Shown: positions 15,160-42,605 of the stretch, piece after piece
Numbering within the stretch: the first letter of the stretch is position 1
Layout of the letters: every line of letters starts with the position of its first letter
Assembly (NCBI GenBank): GCA_937899725.1
Contig: CALCCA010000041.1
Coordinates: 62,001-126,000, forward strand
DNA: 64,000 bases
Source of the DNA: an uncultured Halomicronema sp.
GTDB lineage: Bacteria; Cyanobacteriota; Cyanobacteriia; Phormidesmidales; Phormidesmidaceae
Reading direction: 5' to 3'
The notes under the pieces: model-generated
The model's input: the letters and a program-made list of their open reading frames with translations, nothing else
What the model was told of the DNA's origin: nothing
Databases searched by the model: none
Program-made: the position numbers and the translations under genes

Positions 15160-15304
15160 GGTCAGTCAGGCCAGTTTTTTAGCGGTGAGACAATCAGGCG
15201 AGCATCGTTGATGGCCTCGCGGCTGTAAACGGGTTGAGTATTGGCGATCGCCCCCAAACAGCGCAGACGACGAAAACAGATACCCTGCAACCATCCCACG
15301 ACAA

Positions 15305-28116: not shown

Positions 28117-28458
28117 CTAACTGCCCAGCTTAAACGCCTCGACAAAGAGACTATAAATGAGACCGATCTTGAGCGCGTTCAACACTTCTAAAAACAAAGT
28201 TCGACGGCGGGGCAGTTCGGGTGGGGGACGGCGATAGACCAGCCAGTTGACCAATTCGGTCGCCGCGAGCAAAACGGCTGACACCACCACATCGAGTTCG
28301 GCCGCCTGTCCGGCGATCGACGAAATCGCAATGCCGAAAAAATTGCCAAACAGCAGACCAATAATCACCAAAGACAGCCGCCGCCAAGGGTTATATAACC
28401 AGCGGCCAAATTGGTTGGAGACCGACTCAATTAGAGTAGATAGACGAGTGCGCTGCAT
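28117..28458 (-). CDS. ycf20: Ycf20 (DUF565) membrane protein
   Basis: 113 residues from ATG 28458. MQRTRLSTLIESVSNQFGRW and NPWRRLSLVIIGLLFGNFFG are typical of the DUF565/Ycf20 family, with about three hydrophobic segments. Algal and plant relatives affect thermal dissipation of light energy; the cyanobacterial role is open. An insertion element ends 9 bp upstream of this ATG. The frame now extends eight codons into the element's terminal repeat, but those codons are not native. The original ribosome site (AGGA) stayed behind at the end of the gene at 29886. Confidence 0.88.
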   Translation of the reverse strand: MQRTRLSTLIESVSNQFGRWLYNPWRRLSLVIIGLLFGNFFGIAISSIAGQAAELDVVVSAVLLAATELVNWLVYRRPPPELPRRRTLFLEVLNALKIGLIYSLFVEAFKLGS

Positions 28459-28467
28459 GGCCGTTAT
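28459..28467. repeat. Target-site duplication, left copy
   Basis: GGCCGTTAT, identical to 29881-29889, directly outside the left terminal repeat of the insertion element. The 9-bp direct repeat marks the insertion target between ycf20 and the RDD/pentapeptide gene. Confidence 0.9.
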
Positions 28468-28598
28468 CTGGTTGACTGACAAAAGTTGTTCAAAAACGGC
28501 TGAAGCGCTTTTGTTTCAGGGGACTGAGCATTGACAAGAAGCTGGGTGGGAGCCAGCATTCTAAGATTAGATACCACTCACATCCTGGAATGCCGTGA

Positions 28599-28776
28599 AA
28601 AAACTCCCAAATCTACCATGCCTTGGAAAACTGGCTCGGTCAATCACCTGAATGGGCTCATCTGAGTCATTTGAAGACCTACCTACGGATGGTCATCGCC
28701 TTGATTCACAGCGGTGAAGTCAATCTGACGCGATGGCTACCGCACATGCCGTGCCGCGGTGAGCAGGCCCAAAGTA
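28599..28776 (+). pseudogene. Truncated IS4-like transposase, N-terminal fragment
   Basis: Reading from about 28599 gives QIYHALENWLGQSPEWAHLS, then HLKTYLRMVIALIHSGEVNL and LPHMPCRGEQAQSR, the amino-terminal helical domain seen in IS4/IS701-like transposases. The sequence leaves the family pattern exactly where the inner element begins. The DDE catalytic domain is missing. A possible last piece of the carboxyl end (FRVHRSNLPISTRLSFVSQP) is readable at about 29819-29880. Confidence 0.65.
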
Positions 28777-29818
28777 GGCTCAATAGCTGTTTTGCGGAGT
28801 TAGTGTGAGGGCTAGGACGAGCTGCGTTGCTAGAATCCCGCATGAGATGAGCGCTCCCTGTCGATGCTAAGCCTGACACATCGGCTGGAAGAAGCTAAAG
28901 GCTACGAAAGTGTACGCCGTTTGCGTGGGCCTGACGGCACGGTCGAGTGTCCCCACGGCAAGACGGCAAGAGTGATCAAGCGCGGCAGAGATGACAAGCA
29001 TCCCCATCGCCAACGCGACGTTTGTAAAAGCTGTGAGCAGCAGTTTGATGAGTTGACCGGCACGGTGTTTATGGGACGACATCAACCGTTGCGAGTCTGG
29101 ATTGGGTGTCTGTCTCTGATGGGGCCGAATCTTTCAAATCAGCAAATTGCCCCAGAGCTGGACTTGCACAAAGATGCTGTTCACGCCCTGACGACGCAGT
29201 TGCGTCAAGTCATGGTCAACCAGAAACCAGAGGTTCAGCTTTCCAGCACGGTTGAGTGCGATGAGGTGTCCGTGACGGCGGGCCACAAAGGACATCCCGA
29301 AGCCGTGCCAAAAAAGGGCGGGAGGGACGGCGGCGGAAGCTCAAAGGGCTTCGGGACGGCGGTACCCTGACGACGGAAAAGCCACCGGTCTTTGGGATGA
29401 TTCAGCGTAGTGGAGAAGTGGTGATTCGCCTTCTAGAGAACGTACAACAGAAGACGATTGACCCCATTATCAAGGCCACGATTGCTCCCGGCACCTTGGT
29501 CAACACCGACGAGTCCGTCATTGACGCACCGCTTGAAGCTGGGGATTATGGTCACAAAACCGTTTGTCATAGTGCTGGCGAGTATGTCCGTGCTGAAGAT
29601 GGTGACGGTTTTTGCGCAGTTCATGTCAACACGATGGCAGGCTTTTGGTCTCTGCGACGCTCTGGGTTGCGTCCTCATCGAGGCATTTCTCAAGAGAAGC
29701 GGCCACTCTACCTCGGCTTCTTCAAGTTTATGCACAACGCACGAAGGCGAGGCAAAGCCTTGCTTGGTAATCTGTTAGAGACTATCTTGGCCTAGCTCCT
29801 TAAAACGCAGATTGAGCC
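28777..29818 (+). mobile_element. IS1595-family insertion sequence, 1,042 bp
   Basis: Imperfect terminal repeats: left end starts GGCTCAATAGCTGTTTTGCG (28777 on), right end in complement starts GGCTCAATCTGCGTTTTAAG (29818 back). The first 8 bases are identical and about 20 of 27 match overall. It contains one transposase split by a frameshift. No 8-bp target duplication is seen (left flank CCAAAGTA, right flank ATTTCGAG), which suggests an adjacent deletion after insertion. Confidence 0.75.
28864..29795 (+). pseudogene. IS1595-type transposase, interrupted by a -1 frameshift
   Basis: Two frames make one protein. Frame 1 (28864-29370) has a zinc-ribbon-like start (ECPHGKTARVIKRGRDD; DVCKSCEQQFDELTGTVFMG), HTH and first catalytic Asp (TVECDEVSVTAGHKG). 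Frame 2 (to 29795) has LVNTDESVIDA with the second Asp and VNTMAGFWSLRRSGLRPHRG. Shifting -1 at A-AAA-AAG (29310-29316) joins KKG to REGRRRKLKG, the expected family wording. The first ribbon reads CPHG, lacking its second Cys. Either an A was lost from a homopolymer (dead copy) or this is programmed frameshifting. Confidence 0.85.
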
Positions 29819-29880
29819 ATTTCGAGTTCACCGTTCGAACCTTCCGATATCCACCCGACTAAGTTTTGTCAGTCAACCAG

Positions 29881-29889
29881 GGCCGTTAT
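29881..29889. repeat. Target-site duplication, right copy
   Basis: GGCCGTTAT, identical to 28459-28467. It overlaps the stop codon (TAA, 29888-29886) of the RDD/pentapeptide gene, which therefore survived insertion intact. Confidence 0.9.
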
Positions 29890-32105
29890 TCCTGCGTTGA
29901 GACACCACAGGCAGAATGCAAGCCACCTTGAGTGCAGATAAAGCTGAGCTGGGTGGCATCTAAATTCTGACCGCCGCTAAAGTCGACGCCTTGATATTGG
30001 TCGCCCATGCTGAGGTCGGGAATCGCTGCCACAAAATCGTCGTCCGCGCCCCCAGTCGGATTCGTGAACAAAGCCCCGGCAAAATCGACCTGGTTCAGAT
30101 TCGCCCCTTGCAGCCGCAGGTCCCGCAGGTCAGCATCGCGCAGGCTCGCCCCCGCCAGATCAGCACCGCTCAGATTAGCACCCTGCAGCGTCACCCCGGT
30201 CAAGTCGGCACTGCGGAGGTTAGCGCCACTCAAATCGACATCGGTCAGAATCGCGGCGGGGGCCGAGACGCCTTGTAGATTGGCGGCAATCAGGGTGCTT
30301 CCGGCAGCATTGATCGCAGCTAAGCGGGCACCGGCCAGATTGGCCCCAGAGAGCTGAGCCTCAGTCAGATCCGCTTTTGACAGGCGAGCATTAGCCAGCG
30401 TGGCCTGATCCAACACGGTTTGAATCAGGCTGGCATGTTCTAAATTGGCCCCGCTCAAATTGGCCCAGGTGAGATCGGCGCGATTGAAATTGGTGCGGAG
30501 CAGGCCAGCATTCACCAGTTGACTCAACGTCAGATCGGCGCCGGAAAGATTGGCGTCGCTGAGGTCGGCCCCGCTGAAATTAGTGACGCGATCATCGTAG
30601 GTGTTGGGGTGATGATCAGCGCCGAGGCTATAGAACCTCGCCCCTTGGAGCTGCGCCTGGGTTAAGACCGACCCTTGCCATTGAATGCCCGCCAGGTCTT
30701 GATTTTTGAGCACTAGCCGAAATTCACCAGCACCCCCGTGAATCAACCCGAGATGCATGCGAGTCAGGTTGAGGGGACGGGAGCGATCGCCCTCCTCTAG
30801 CATCACCAATTTCGTGAGAATGCGATTGGTGGTCTGCAAGCGTATCAGGGTGGTGTAATGCCGCGTGGGTTCGCCCTGCATCCTTAGGTCAGCGGCGAGC
30901 CCCTGATTCAGCCGCCGCAGGTAAGGAAACGCCTCTGCGCCCCGCGCCACTAACGCCTGCTGCAGCGCATCGAGCCACAGCAAATCATCGGTTTGAGCAA
31001 TCAGATCAACCAAGAGTGGCGTCACGCGCTCATCGGGCAGATTCCCCAGCGCCAGCACGGCGGCCCGGCGGGCCGCCGGGTCTAACTCGGGGTTGGTCAG
31101 GGTGGAGACCAAGTTGACGTATAAATTTTCATCGGGGGTGGCCGCAGCGGTCGAAGGTCGCCCGAGCACAAAGTAGCTCACGCCCCCGGTTAGCCCCCCG
31201 ATGGTCAGCAGCAAGCCTAAGCCCAGCCCCACCTTCGACAGGGTGAGTTCGGAGTCTGGCCAGCCCGGCGGGTGAGGCTTGATCACTACTGACGTGGGCC
31301 CCACCGCCTGAGCCCAGCGGCCTGAGCGCCCCAGCCCTGGCAGCCCCTTCGCTTCAGCGTGCCACAGACTCGACAGATGAATCATCGCGCCCGTGTCTTC
31401 ATCCACTACACAGGTGCCCGCGAGCCAATCATGCCAGGCCCGTCTGGGTCGGTTGCCCAGCCCGGTTAAACTTTCGCCGATGAGGGCGATCGCGCCGAGC
31501 CCTGCCAGCATGCCAATGACGGGAAAGGCCCCACTCAATTGCCACACACCGTAGGCTACCAGCAGCGGACAGCCCCATTTCCCCACACCTTCGCGGAGGA
31601 TGATTCTGGGCCAGCCCGGCATCTGACCATTTAGCGCCAGCACTTGCACCCCCAGCCACTGCTTGGGCCAACTCTGCCCCGAGCGCCCCACCCGATAAAT
31701 GTGGCCAGCGACCAAGATGAGCGGCAGCCCCAACGCCGCAGACCATAGCAGATTGGTCAACGGTGTCACTTGCGTGGGCAGTGATCGCGGCGACAGACCC
31801 AACGCCTTGGCCGCTCCAGTTTGTACCCACTGCAGCGTCGGGGAGAGATCGCGCTTGGGACTATCGAAGGTTTGGTTAGCCTGGCGGCCCAAATAAAAGG
31901 GCAGCGCCACGCTGGTAGTCAGAAGGGCGACTTCTAAGCTCCAGGCGAAGAACCGTCGCCCCAAAGTCGGCACCCGTTTGGCGGCACGGTTGGTTGGGGC
32001 AGTCTGAAGCGGCGATCGCGCCCGGGGAGACTGTTTAATTCGGGTCGAGTTCACCGCAGGTGGAGTAACAGACCGTTTCGATTGCCGTCGGGGAGGAGAA
32101 CTCAT
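29886..32105 (-). CDS. RDD membrane domain plus pentapeptide-repeat protein
   Basis: 739 residues in four parts: a basic, disordered start (1-45); an RDD-type membrane domain with about five helices (50-240; RRFFAWSLEVALLTTS and RPRRAWHDWLAGTCVVDED); an anchor plus HEAT-like helical segment (300-400; PAARRAAVLALGNLPDERVT); then a pentapeptide beta-helix of about 45 A(D/N)LxX units (500-700). Ends with a cysteine-containing cap. Such fusions resemble HglK-like proteins, but the role here is unknown. It originally lay 5 bp upstream of ycf20, now separated by the insertion element. Confidence 0.9.
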   Translation of the reverse strand: MSSPPRRQSKRSVTPPAVNSTRIKQSPRARSPLQTAPTNRAAKRVPTLGRRFFAWSLEVALLTTSVALPFYLGRQANQTFDSPKRDLSPTLQWVQTGAAKALGLSPRSLPTQVTPLTNLLWSAALGLPLILVAGHIYRVGRSGQSWPKQWLGVQVLALNGQMPGWPRIILREGVGKWGCPLLVAYGVWQLSGAFPVIGMLAGLGAIALIGESLTGLGNRPRRAWHDWLAGTCVVDEDTGAMIHLSSLWHAEAKGLPGLGRSGRWAQAVGPTSVVIKPHPPGWPDSELTLSKVGLGLGLLLTIGGLTGGVSYFVLGRPSTAAATPDENLYVNLVSTLTNPELDPAARRAAVLALGNLPDERVTPLLVDLIAQTDDLLWLDALQQALVARGAEAFPYLRRLNQGLAADLRMQGEPTRHYTTLIRLQTTNRILTKLVMLEEGDRSRPLNLTRMHLGLIHGGAGEFRLVLKNQDLAGIQWQGSVLTQAQLQGARFYSLGADHHPNTYDDRVTNFSGADLSDANLSGADLTLSQLVNAGLLRTNFNRADLTWANLSGANLEHASLIQTVLDQATLANARLSKADLTEAQLSGANLAGARLAAINAAGSTLIAANLQGVSAPAAILTDVDLSGANLRSADLTGVTLQGANLSGADLAGASLRDADLRDLRLQGANLNQVDFAGALFTNPTGGADDDFVAAIPDLSMGDQYQGVDFSGGQNLDATQLSFICTQGGLHSACGVSTQE

Positions 32106-38454: not shown

Positions 38455-41421
38455 ATGACTGAGCGATCATCACTACCGCGATCGGAGGCGGAGGCGGGAT
38501 CTCATCAGGCCATCCCAACCAGTGCCGGGGAAGATGCCCTGCGGCAAGAAATCATTAACCTTAAACGCGAAGCTGCCGACCTTAAGCAGCAGCTCTACGA
38601 ACGCGACCAGCGGCTCCAGGCCACCACCACAGAAATTGGCGATCTTAATCAAAAGTTCATTGCCCAAACCGCCGCCCTCAGGGAATCAAACGACACCTTA
38701 GTGGCAGAGGTAGTCGAACGCAGCCAAGCCGAAACCAAGCTCAGGACGGCCCGTGACCAGCTGCAGGCCATCTTAGATGCGGTTCCTGGCATCGTGTCGT
38801 GGATTAGCGATGACCTGCGCTATCTCGGCGTTAACAATCACTTAGCCCAGACCTTTAACATGCCGGCAGAGGCTTTTACCGGTCAGGATATTGGCTTCCT
38901 GCATACCAGCAACCAGTTCAACACCTTTGTGCAGGACTTTTTTCAAAGTCAGCAGTCCGATGCCTATCGCGAAGTCTCGGCTCAGGTCGCCGGCGACGAA
39001 CGGCGCTTTTTGATCGTGGCGCAAAAATACAATCAGGGCCGGGCGGCCTTTACCGTGGGGATTGACATTAGCGAGCGGAATCGCGCTGAAAAGGCCCTGC
39101 GCGAAGCCGAAGCCAAATATCGCAATATCTTTGAGCACGCCGTTGAGGGGATTTTTCAAACCACCACCGATGGTCGCTACCTCAGCGCCAACCCAGCCCT
39201 GGCCCGCATTTATGGCTATCCGTCGGCCGATACCATGACGGTCGAGTTGACCAACATTCAGCAGCAGCTCTATGTCGATCCGGAGCGCCGTCAAGCGTTT
39301 GCCCAAACCCTACAGCGTGACGGCGCCGTCACCGGGTTTGAATCACAGGTTTACCGACAAGACGGTACGGTGATCTGGATCTCTGAAAATGCGCGCTCAG
39401 TCTACGACAGTACCGGTGACTTGATCTATTACGAAGGCACCGTTGAGGACATCACCCAGCGGAAAGAAGCCGAGGCCGCTCTGCAGCGAGCGAATGAGGA
39501 GCTAGAACAACGCGTCAACCTGCGCACCGCCGCCTTGACCCAGTCCAACCAACGCTTACTGGCAGAAGTGCGCGATCGCCATCGGGCCGAAGACGCACTG
39601 CGGGCTTCGGAGGCTGAGCTGCGGGCCTTGTTTGCCGCAATGACCGATGTGATCACCGTGTTTGATCGCGATGGCCGCTATCTGAATATGGTGACCAAGG
39701 CGCAACTGCTCTACAACCCAGGCACCGAACGCATTGGCCAAACGGTGTATGACATCTTGCCGCCCTATCAGGCAAGTTTGTTTATGCGCCACATTCAAAC
39801 AGCGCTCAACTCCGGTCAGCCCGTGCGCGTCGAATACAGCCTGCCGATTGGCGATTGGCGGCAGGCGGGGGCAGAGTCCAGCGGCCAGGCGGAGCTCGAT
39901 GATTTTGAGAACGCCGTTTGGTACGCGGCGATTATTTCGCCGATGCCCCAGAATCGAGTGATTTGGGTAGCGCGCGACATCTCAGAGAAACGGCGCGCCG
40001 ATATGGCGCTGCAAAAGGCTGAGGAAAAATATCGCAGCATTTTTGAAAACAGTGCTGAGGGGATTTTCCAAGCCAGCCCCGATGCCCGGTATCTCAGTGT
40101 TAACCCAGCCCTGTCGAGAATGTATGGCTATCTCAGCCCAGCTGAAATGATGGCGCAGATTAACAACATCGATCGCCTCTACGTCAAAGAAGAGCACCGG
40201 CGCACCATGCTGCAGCGGTTACATTCTCAAGGGGCGGTGTTTGAGTTTGAGTCACAGGTTTATCGGGCCGATGGGCAGGTGATTTGGGTCTCAGAAAATG
40301 TGCGGGCCGTGACCAACGATCGCGGCGGGGTGCAGTATTACGAAGGTACCGTCGCCGACATTACCCAACGTCGTCAAGCGCAAGAGGCCCTTCGTGAAAG
40401 CCAGCGCACCTTGGCCACCCTGTTGGGCAACCTGGCGGGCATGGCCTATCGGCGTTACTGCGACGCCAATTGGACGCTAGAGTTTGTCAGCGACGGCTGC
40501 TACGAACTCACGGGCTATACTCCAGCGGATTTGCTCCGCCCCGAGGCCTTTCCCTTTGAGCAGCTGATTCACCCAGACGATCGCGACTACGTTAAAGGGG
40601 AGTTGCGGCGATCGCTCCCCAATGGCAGCCCGTTTCAGATGACCTATCGCATTCTGACCACGGGGGAACAAGAAAAGTGGGTACTCGAGAAAGGGGTGCC
40701 AGTTTCGGAACCGACGGCTCAGCCCGCCGTGGTGGAAGGCTTCTTAACGGACATCACCGATCGCAAAGAAATTGAAGAAGCCTTGCGAGTTGAGCAAGAG
40801 CGCTCCGAGCGACTACTGCTCAACATCTTGCCCGCCTCGATTGCCGACCAGCTCAAACGCAACACGCAATCAATCGCCTACCGGTTTGATGCGGTTACCA
40901 TTCTCTTTGCCGACATTGTTAATTTCACCGAGTTGTCAGGGGCAATGCCCCCGACCGAACTGGTCGATTTGCTCAACGAAATCTTCTCCGCCTTTGATCA
41001 CCTTGCCGAACGCCACCGGTTAGAAAAGATCAAAACCATTGGCGATGCCTACATGGTGGTGGGTGGGCTGCCCAGCGCACTGCCCCATCACACGCGGGCG
41101 ATCGCCGAAATGGCCCTCGACATGCAGGCGGCGATCGCTCAGTTTCGTCGGCAAGATCATTCCACCTTTAGCCTCCGCATTGGCATCGACACTGGCCCGG
41201 TCGTCGCGGGAGTCATTGGCCTCAAAAAATTCTCCTACGACCTTTGGGGCGATGCGGTCAATGTGGCCAGCCGCATGGAATCTCAAGGGGTTGCCGACCA
41301 CATTCAAGTCACCGAATCGGTCTATGAGCTGCTCAAAGACGAATACACCTTTGAGGCGCGAGGCATCATTGATGTCAAAGGTAAGGGGCCGATGATGACC
41401 CATTGGCTGCAGGGCCGCTAG
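38455..41421 (+). CDS. Adenylate cyclase with five PAS domains
   Basis: 988 residues, soluble. Coiled coil at 25-110, then PAS domains at about 100-215, 220-345, 385-515, 525-650 and 655-780, and a class III cyclase at 810-985. PAS2 and PAS4 are close relatives (KYRNIFEHAVEGIFQ versus KYRSIFENSAEGIFQ). In the cyclase, metal ligands are FADIVNFT and TIGDAYM. The purine-selecting residues are Lys in EKIKTIGD and Asp in YDLWGDAVN, so it should make cAMP, not cGMP. The stop codon TAG is the first three bases of a mobile element. Confidence 0.93.
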   Translation: MTERSSLPRSEAEAGSHQAIPTSAGEDALRQEIINLKREAADLKQQLYERDQRLQATTTEIGDLNQKFIAQTAALRESNDTLVAEVVERSQAETKLRTARDQLQAILDAVPGIVSWISDDLRYLGVNNHLAQTFNMPAEAFTGQDIGFLHTSNQFNTFVQDFFQSQQSDAYREVSAQVAGDERRFLIVAQKYNQGRAAFTVGIDISERNRAEKALREAEAKYRNIFEHAVEGIFQTTTDGRYLSANPALARIYGYPSADTMTVELTNIQQQLYVDPERRQAFAQTLQRDGAVTGFESQVYRQDGTVIWISENARSVYDSTGDLIYYEGTVEDITQRKEAEAALQRANEELEQRVNLRTAALTQSNQRLLAEVRDRHRAEDALRASEAELRALFAAMTDVITVFDRDGRYLNMVTKAQLLYNPGTERIGQTVYDILPPYQASLFMRHIQTALNSGQPVRVEYSLPIGDWRQAGAESSGQAELDDFENAVWYAAIISPMPQNRVIWVARDISEKRRADMALQKAEEKYRSIFENSAEGIFQASPDARYLSVNPALSRMYGYLSPAEMMAQINNIDRLYVKEEHRRTMLQRLHSQGAVFEFESQVYRADGQVIWVSENVRAVTNDRGGVQYYEGTVADITQRRQAQEALRESQRTLATLLGNLAGMAYRRYCDANWTLEFVSDGCYELTGYTPADLLRPEAFPFEQLIHPDDRDYVKGELRRSLPNGSPFQMTYRILTTGEQEKWVLEKGVPVSEPTAQPAVVEGFLTDITDRKEIEEALRVEQERSERLLLNILPASIADQLKRNTQSIAYRFDAVTILFADIVNFTELSGAMPPTELVDLLNEIFSAFDHLAERHRLEKIKTIGDAYMVVGGLPSALPHHTRAIAEMALDMQAAIAQFRRQDHSTFSLRIGIDTGPVVAGVIGLKKFSYDLWGDAVNVASRMESQGVADHIQVTESVYELLKDEYTFEARGIIDVKGKGPMMTHWLQGR

Positions 41422-41545
41422 AGGCTGTCATCATTTAGCAGCTGAGTCCTGATGCTGAAATCGGTTCAGCCTCTAGCTGTTTACGGAGCGGGCGCGGTAA
41501 TGCCCCTAACGTCAGGCTTTCGAGTTTGATTGATGACACCCCCTA
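41419..41545 (+). mobile_element. MITE-like element, copy A (127 bp)
   Basis: Ends TAGAGGCTGTCATCATTT and, in complement, TAGGGGGTGTCATCAATC, both beginning with TA, which may be the duplicated target. The first 60 bases fold as a hairpin closed by CTAGAGGCTG/CAGCCTCTAG-type arms; the middle contains GGGCGCGGTAATG, shared with copy C. It begins in the cyclase stop codon. No coding capacity. Confidence 0.8.
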
Positions 41546-41849
41546 GGTCACAGGGCCGAAATCAGACCCGATTCCAGCCTTCAGTGGTCATTAGCAACGT
41601 GAGGACATAGAGGAAATAATTGTTGTGGAGGCGAGGCGTCATCCCGTTTCCCAGTTTTGCGCCCCTCATAACCTTTGCCAAGGCCGGGGAGCTGAGGGGC
41701 AGAGGAGCTAAATCTGTGGCGGTGTTTGGGAGAACTAGGATAAAGCGCTGAGATCATTCGGGCAGCCAAAAGTTCGTTCAAATATCTTTGCTGTGGTTAG
41801 CGCTGAACAGTCTGCCTTAAAGATGACCATAAAATGTGACACAAGGTCT

Positions 41850-42472: not shown

Positions 42473-42531
42473 CTAGAGGCTGAACCGCTTTCAGCATCAG
42501 AACTCAGCCGCTAAATGATGACAGCCTCTAG
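42473..42531 (-). repeat. MITE-like element, half copy B (hairpin part, 59 bp)
   Basis: The complement is nearly identical (three to four differences) to the first 59 bases of copy A, from CTAGAGGCTG to CAGCCTCTAG. The remaining 70 bases of the full element are absent. It is inverted relative to copy A. Confidence 0.85.
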
Positions 42532-42605
42532 CAGCTGCGCAAAATTGGCTTGAGATTCTGCAATCTCCTCTGTAGACTCAACATGCAACTTTGATGATGA
42601 GGGTT

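Follow-up and report, generated by a model that had tools for sequence, protein, structure and literature searches.

What separated ycf20 from its upstream partner gene at this locus, and what did the separation mean for ycf20? By the window we mean the whole stretch of DNA that was analysed, 64 kb in length. In it, an insert of 1413 bp (28468-29880) lies between the two genes, enclosed by copies of the 9-mer GGCCGTTAT, which as an exact sequence has two occurrences in the window (28459-28467 and 29881-29889). The 20-bp ends of the insert, CTGGTTGACTGACAAAAGTT and CTGGTTGACTGACAAAACTT, match with one mismatch. A preliminary description of this DNA had reported perfect 9-bp repeats and such ends, and the exact sequence agrees with it. 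The genes and duplications are as follows.

28117-28458, reverse strand: ycf20 (DUF565, 113 aa), ATG at 28456-28458; Pfam PF04483, E=2.7e-24
28459-28467, no strand: left target-site duplication, exact GGCCGTTAT; one copy with one mismatch at the empty site of relative G002
29881-29889, no strand: right target-site duplication, GGCCGTTAT; includes the TAA of the RDD/pentapeptide gene (reverse strand, 29886-29888)
29886-32105, reverse strand: gene for a 739-aa RDD and pentapeptide-repeat protein, partner of ycf20 on its upstream side; Pfam RDD and Pentapeptide

When the flanks were joined without the insert, they gave CGCAGGAATAACGGCCATG, in which the TAA stop is followed by 5 bp and the ycf20 ATG, with AGGA nine bases 5' of that ATG. 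The base-level claims made earlier about this junction were all correct. An empty site had also been predicted in a close relative, and it is present in G002, the nearest relative and of the same genus. The G002 junction, CGCAGGAATAACCGCCATG, is uninterrupted, with the RDD/pentapeptide TAA, 5 bp and the ycf20 ATG. The joined flanks and G002 are identical at 744 of 795 aligned bases, and the 9-mer is found there as one copy, GGCGGTTAT, with one mismatch to GGCCGTTAT. Transposition with a 9-bp target duplication is supported as the event that parted these two closely spaced genes of the same direction.

The two parts of the insert

The insertion is real. As a nested IS insertion it is ordinary, apart from a few unusual details, and it is not the single insertion element first described: an IS4-type remnant holds a whole IS1595-family element. 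In a search of its own genome, query bases 1-321 and 1366-1426 matched one kind of repeat and bases 319-1368 another. Alignment with continuous relatives of the outer part ruled out a single-element reading.

28468-28776, forward strand: IS4-type left part, 309 bp; 20-bp terminal repeat and N-terminal transposase frame from 28623
28777-29818, forward strand: complete IS1595-family element, 1042 bp; ends GGCTCAAT.../...ATTGAGCC
29819-29880, forward strand: IS4-type right part, 62 bp; carries the right terminal repeat and the final codons of its transposase (FEFTVRTFRYPPD*); aligned to the right ends of C57, G081, G014 and G435 elements

The left 309 bp are 69-72% identical to the left ends of elements on contig C57 of the same genome, in G081 (two copies) and in G014, and the right 62 bp match the C57 copies at 79-80%. 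These relatives are continuous, 1316-1322 bp long, and have the same ends. The window copy is without the ~945-951 bp middle that they possess, so that 309 + 62 = 371 bp are left; of the transposase gene, this includes some 50 codons at the N-terminal end and the very last ones. In a related copy on C57 the transposase frame is open over 382 aa, and it matched NCBIfam NF033591 (transpos_IS4_2) at 3.6e-38 with a score of 131.6, under the model cut-off of 152. Its YREK-type motif, YGWRFDIEEAFLDDQ, reads Y..R...E......Q, with Y, R and E present and Q for K; this region is deleted in the window. The 9-bp target duplication of the outer element lies within the ~8-12 bp of the IS4 family. Two more insertions of this kind in the genome have the 9-bp repeats GGCCTGTGT and CTCTGTACC, with the flanks exchanged between copies: at L003, L004 and L005 (contigs C57 and C156), IS4-type ends carry 9-bp flanks that pair across copies. 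Such cross-pairing points either to copies that have recombined with one another or to a misjoined assembly.

Both ORFs of the inner element match NCBIfam NF033547 (transpos_IS1595). The Pfam domain PF12762 (DDE_Tnp_IS1595) was found at 46.3 bits, against a cut-off of 27, and at 63.8 bits in the whole-genome search. A second copy, 100% identical, lies 76 kb off on the same contig (G000:C41:14186-15227, reverse strand), and the search of the genome revealed no further IS1595 transposase. The second copy has the 8-bp duplication as well as the domain: ATTTCGAG stands on both sides of it (C41:14178-14185 and 15228-15235). The window copy has ATTTCGAG at the right only (29819-29826), where it runs on into the IS4-type end, and its left flank is IS4-type sequence ending CAAAGTA. 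A one-sided octamer is the expected trace of an IS-adjacent deletion or of two inner copies having recombined.

The same octamer thus adjoins both inner copies, at sites that are unrelated. We considered target-specific insertion as a reason for this and rejected it, because the seven IS1595-family copies in other genomes that carry 8-bp repeats have varied octamers. The second copy does not lie in a further outer IS either, as the sequences flanking it are unrelated to that element.

Other repeats were seen in the course of the analysis. A cyanobacterium of another family (G084:C56) carries a 141-bp element (L148:4149-4289) with similar ends, CTGATTGACGGACAAAA...TTTGTCAGTCAACCAG, 76 bp upstream of ycf20. 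Its flanking repeats, GGTCATCCC and GGTCATTCC, are near-identical, and it is an independent insertion near ycf20. Within the window, a MITE-like repeat of ~130 bp lies at about 41418-41548, with an inverted partial copy 1 kb off at about 42473-42532; there are dozens of copies of it in the relatives G002 and G005.

ycf20 before and after the insertion

Orthologues of ycf20 were present in 85 of 97 relatives. The RDD/pentapeptide gene stands directly before it in 23 of the 29 relatives examined, with a gap of 2-137 bp. Because this gene order is widely conserved, ycf20 was probably read together with its neighbour. Translational coupling of the two, suggested by the 5-bp gap, is plausible.

The preliminary description went further. 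It held that a single element took the ribosome site and the promoter from a translationally coupled ycf20 and so may have changed its expression. The 5-bp stop-start gap at the empty site, the short gaps in many relatives and the AGGA at -9 in G002 agree with that account. However, the insert is two elements, and the AGGA is not conserved as a ribosome site. We looked for AGGA, GAGG or GGAG within the 16 bases examined 5' of the ycf20 start. Such a Shine-Dalgarno-like motif was found in 5 of 29 relatives, where chance alone would give 2.7 (P=0.13), and in none of the four other co-generic relatives. Loss of a ribosome site is therefore weakly supported by these sequences, and the locus warns against taking a lone AGGA for a ribosome site in cyanobacteria.

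The state of the gene also speaks against that account. The window ycf20 has no stops and no indels, and the changes on the window branch are 1 nonsynonymous and 6 synonymous; the encoded Ycf20 protein itself is intact. In contrast, codon 47 of ycf20 is an in-frame TAG in G002 (L008:340-681), which has no insert and an uninterrupted junction; this stop is counted among the 3 nonsynonymous changes of G002. It may be an error of the draft, which consists of 1050 contigs, or ycf20 may be dispensable in this clade. In PMC9548191, ycf20 is described as non-essential in some photosynthetic organisms, and the link of Ycf20 to energy dissipation is credited there to Arabidopsis work (Jung and Niyogi 2010). 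Taken with its evidence on both sides, we regard the loss of a ribosome site and promoter by way of a single element, with a resulting change in ycf20 expression, as doubtful.

The ycf20 frame does run into the terminal repeat, as had been described; it is open upstream as far as a TTG at 28482. A consensus scan of the insert on the ycf20 strand found no promoter-like site. This result fits the loss of a promoter, and it led us to reject an outward promoter supplied by the insert. Now that ycf20 lies behind ~1.4 kb of foreign DNA with no evident promoter, it probably depends on read-through or on a weak internal start.

Probable order of events at the locus

The empty site, the 9-bp duplication, the two-part structure, the missing middle and the one-sided octamer are seen directly; from them we infer the order of events and the mode of deletion, in a history to which we give a probability of roughly 0.8. 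An IS4-type IS of ~1.32 kb would have entered the 5-bp gap between the RDD/pentapeptide gene and ycf20, duplicating 9 bp, after the split from G002. Related IS4-type copies persist in the genome. An IS1595-family element would next have inserted near the end of the IS4-type transposase gene, at ATTTCGAG. The IS4-type DNA from this site to base 309 would then have been lost, either by IS-adjacent deletion or by recombination between IS1595 copies. The product would be the present 371-bp IS4-type shell enclosing a whole IS1595-type element. Against this history, the octamer common to both IS1595 copies is not explained by simple independent insertion, and the outer element has no close intact copy among the sequences compared, the best being 70-72% identical.

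Alternatively, the hybrid might have formed elsewhere and moved into the ycf20 gap as one non-autonomous unit of 1413 bp, with an IS4-type transposase, for example that of C57, acting in trans. Its terminal repeats are both intact and match the genome's other IS4-type copies, its 9-bp duplication is perfect, and the C57 copy has an open frame for the transposase. However, this route takes one event more than the data require, and searches of its own genome, of 386 genomes from the phylum and of plasmids gave no second hybrid. We consider it improbable.

It is possible that an assembly join falls inside the repeated IS1595 element, since the source genome is a draft of 216 contigs and the inner copies are letter-identical, on one contig and both beside ATTTCGAG, but a wrong join that put the IS1595 element inside the IS4-type element is very unlikely: the outer ends share only ~70% identity with the other copies in the genome, so that reads from them are unlikely to have been confused, the boundary coincides exactly with the last base of the inner element, and the empty-site comparison agrees with a simple history. 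Under the stepwise history of IS4-type insertion, nesting and loss of the middle, the locus is a base-precise case of nested insertion and deletion reshaping a conserved gene pair.

The inner transposase and known insertion sequences

The transposase of the inner element is split between two frames.

28864-29370, forward strand: ORF1, N-terminal and first catalytic part of an IS1595-type transposase; NF033547 positions 2-93
29310-29316, forward strand: slippery heptamer A_AAA_AAG, in register with ORF1
29397-29795, forward strand: ORF2, catalytic C-terminal part; PF12762 E=6e-12, NF033547 positions 101-215

Of the 115 columns with 90% or more conservation in relatives, the window transposase deviates at 24; relatives without gross decay deviate at 1 to 8 of them. 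One change, E259A, removes a Glu that 13 of 14 relatives have and that is presumed from the family alignment to be catalytic. C32G (a zinc-finger-type Cys) and W22G are further conserved losses. The set of presumed catalytic residues is not intact, which bears on the activity of this copy and not on its ancestry. The inner transposase is probably dead.

The base changes behind this decay are of an uneven kind. Among window-private changes at conserved bases (28864-29795), 19 of 32 are A>C or T>G (59%). In relatives the figure is 31 of 208 (Fisher P = 2e-7). The same class makes up 15 of 122 changes on the host branch (12%) and 1 of 11 in the outer IS remnant. With values this low, neither an A:T>C:G bias throughout the genome nor sequencing error of a general kind explains the scarring. 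Both frames stay open because A:T>C:G transversions cannot create stop codons. The scarring may date from a mutT-like phase in a previous host, or it may be an artefact confined to the inner repeat. We put forward only tentatively that the inner element passed through an A:T>C:G-biased phase in a mutT-deficient-like host, where missense changes would have ruined its transposase without closing the frames, and that it still managed to spread or be copied within this genome, leaving the same octamer beside both copies. An element scarred in this way is a testable record of mutator history.

A predicted -1 shift at A_AAA_AAG would fuse ORF1 and ORF2 into a product of 310 aa; the ORF2 frame is open from the heptamer onward. 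This heptamer was the most shift-prone among those compared in E. coli, according to PMC5009743. We asked for RNA structure 3' of it that could stimulate frameshifting and rejected this, as the stability of the fold does not exceed that of shuffled sequences (z -0.86). Several IS1595-family relatives are single-frame. An A run and a frame split occur at the same place in L038, L039, L041, L063, L067 and L068-L072. Among split-frame relatives, the run has 6 A in G372 and 8 A in Thiodictyon, five Latescibacteria copies, G080 and G384, the last two being otherwise decayed. The shift is -1 where there are 6 or 8 A, and +1 in Thiocapsa and a Thiotrichaceae MAG, which have 7. Each of the five Latescibacteria copies has its own 8-bp repeats, and these different target repeats indicate that split-frame IS1595-family elements can move.

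Three comparisons place the locus among known systems. The outer element is like the IS4 family, and IS10 in particular, in its 5'-CT ends, the 1316-1322 bp of its continuous relatives and its 9-bp duplication; the IS10 subgroup has CT ends, 1200-1350 bp and a 9-bp duplication (PMC2266710). It differs in that the C57 profile score is below the cut-off, Q replaces the K of YREK, and the window copy has just 309 + 62 bp. The element appears to fit the IS10 subgroup by size, ends and duplication, but we left the subgroup unassigned on account of the Q for K. The inner element shares with the IS1595 family (ISXO2-like) an end-to-end profile match of both ORFs and 8-bp duplications, and its GGCTC... 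terminal repeats are the same as in the relatives L061, L067 and L068-L072. Unlike the family, it has a transposase split in two frames at an A run and changed at many conserved residues.

The third comparison is with IS that use -1 frameshifting or slippage. Those with a slippery run at the ORF junction need the fusion product, according to PMC5009743, PMC1088944 and PMC4066793; IS1595 is not named among them in the text consulted. The heptamer or 8 A at the ORF junction is common to the IS1595-type split elements and to such IS of the IS1, IS3, IS5 and IS630 families, including Deinococcus and Nostoc IS with 8-9 A, and here too a slippery run at the ORF overlap is kept alongside split frames. 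The difference is that shift direction varies among the IS1595-family relatives, -1 with 6 or 8 A and +1 with 7. Varying direction is given as a sign of transcriptional slippage in PMC3711429, and it points to such slippage in members with longer A runs. The split frames of the IS1595 family across cyanobacteria, purple sulfur bacteria and Latescibacteria suggest that slippage is used here too.
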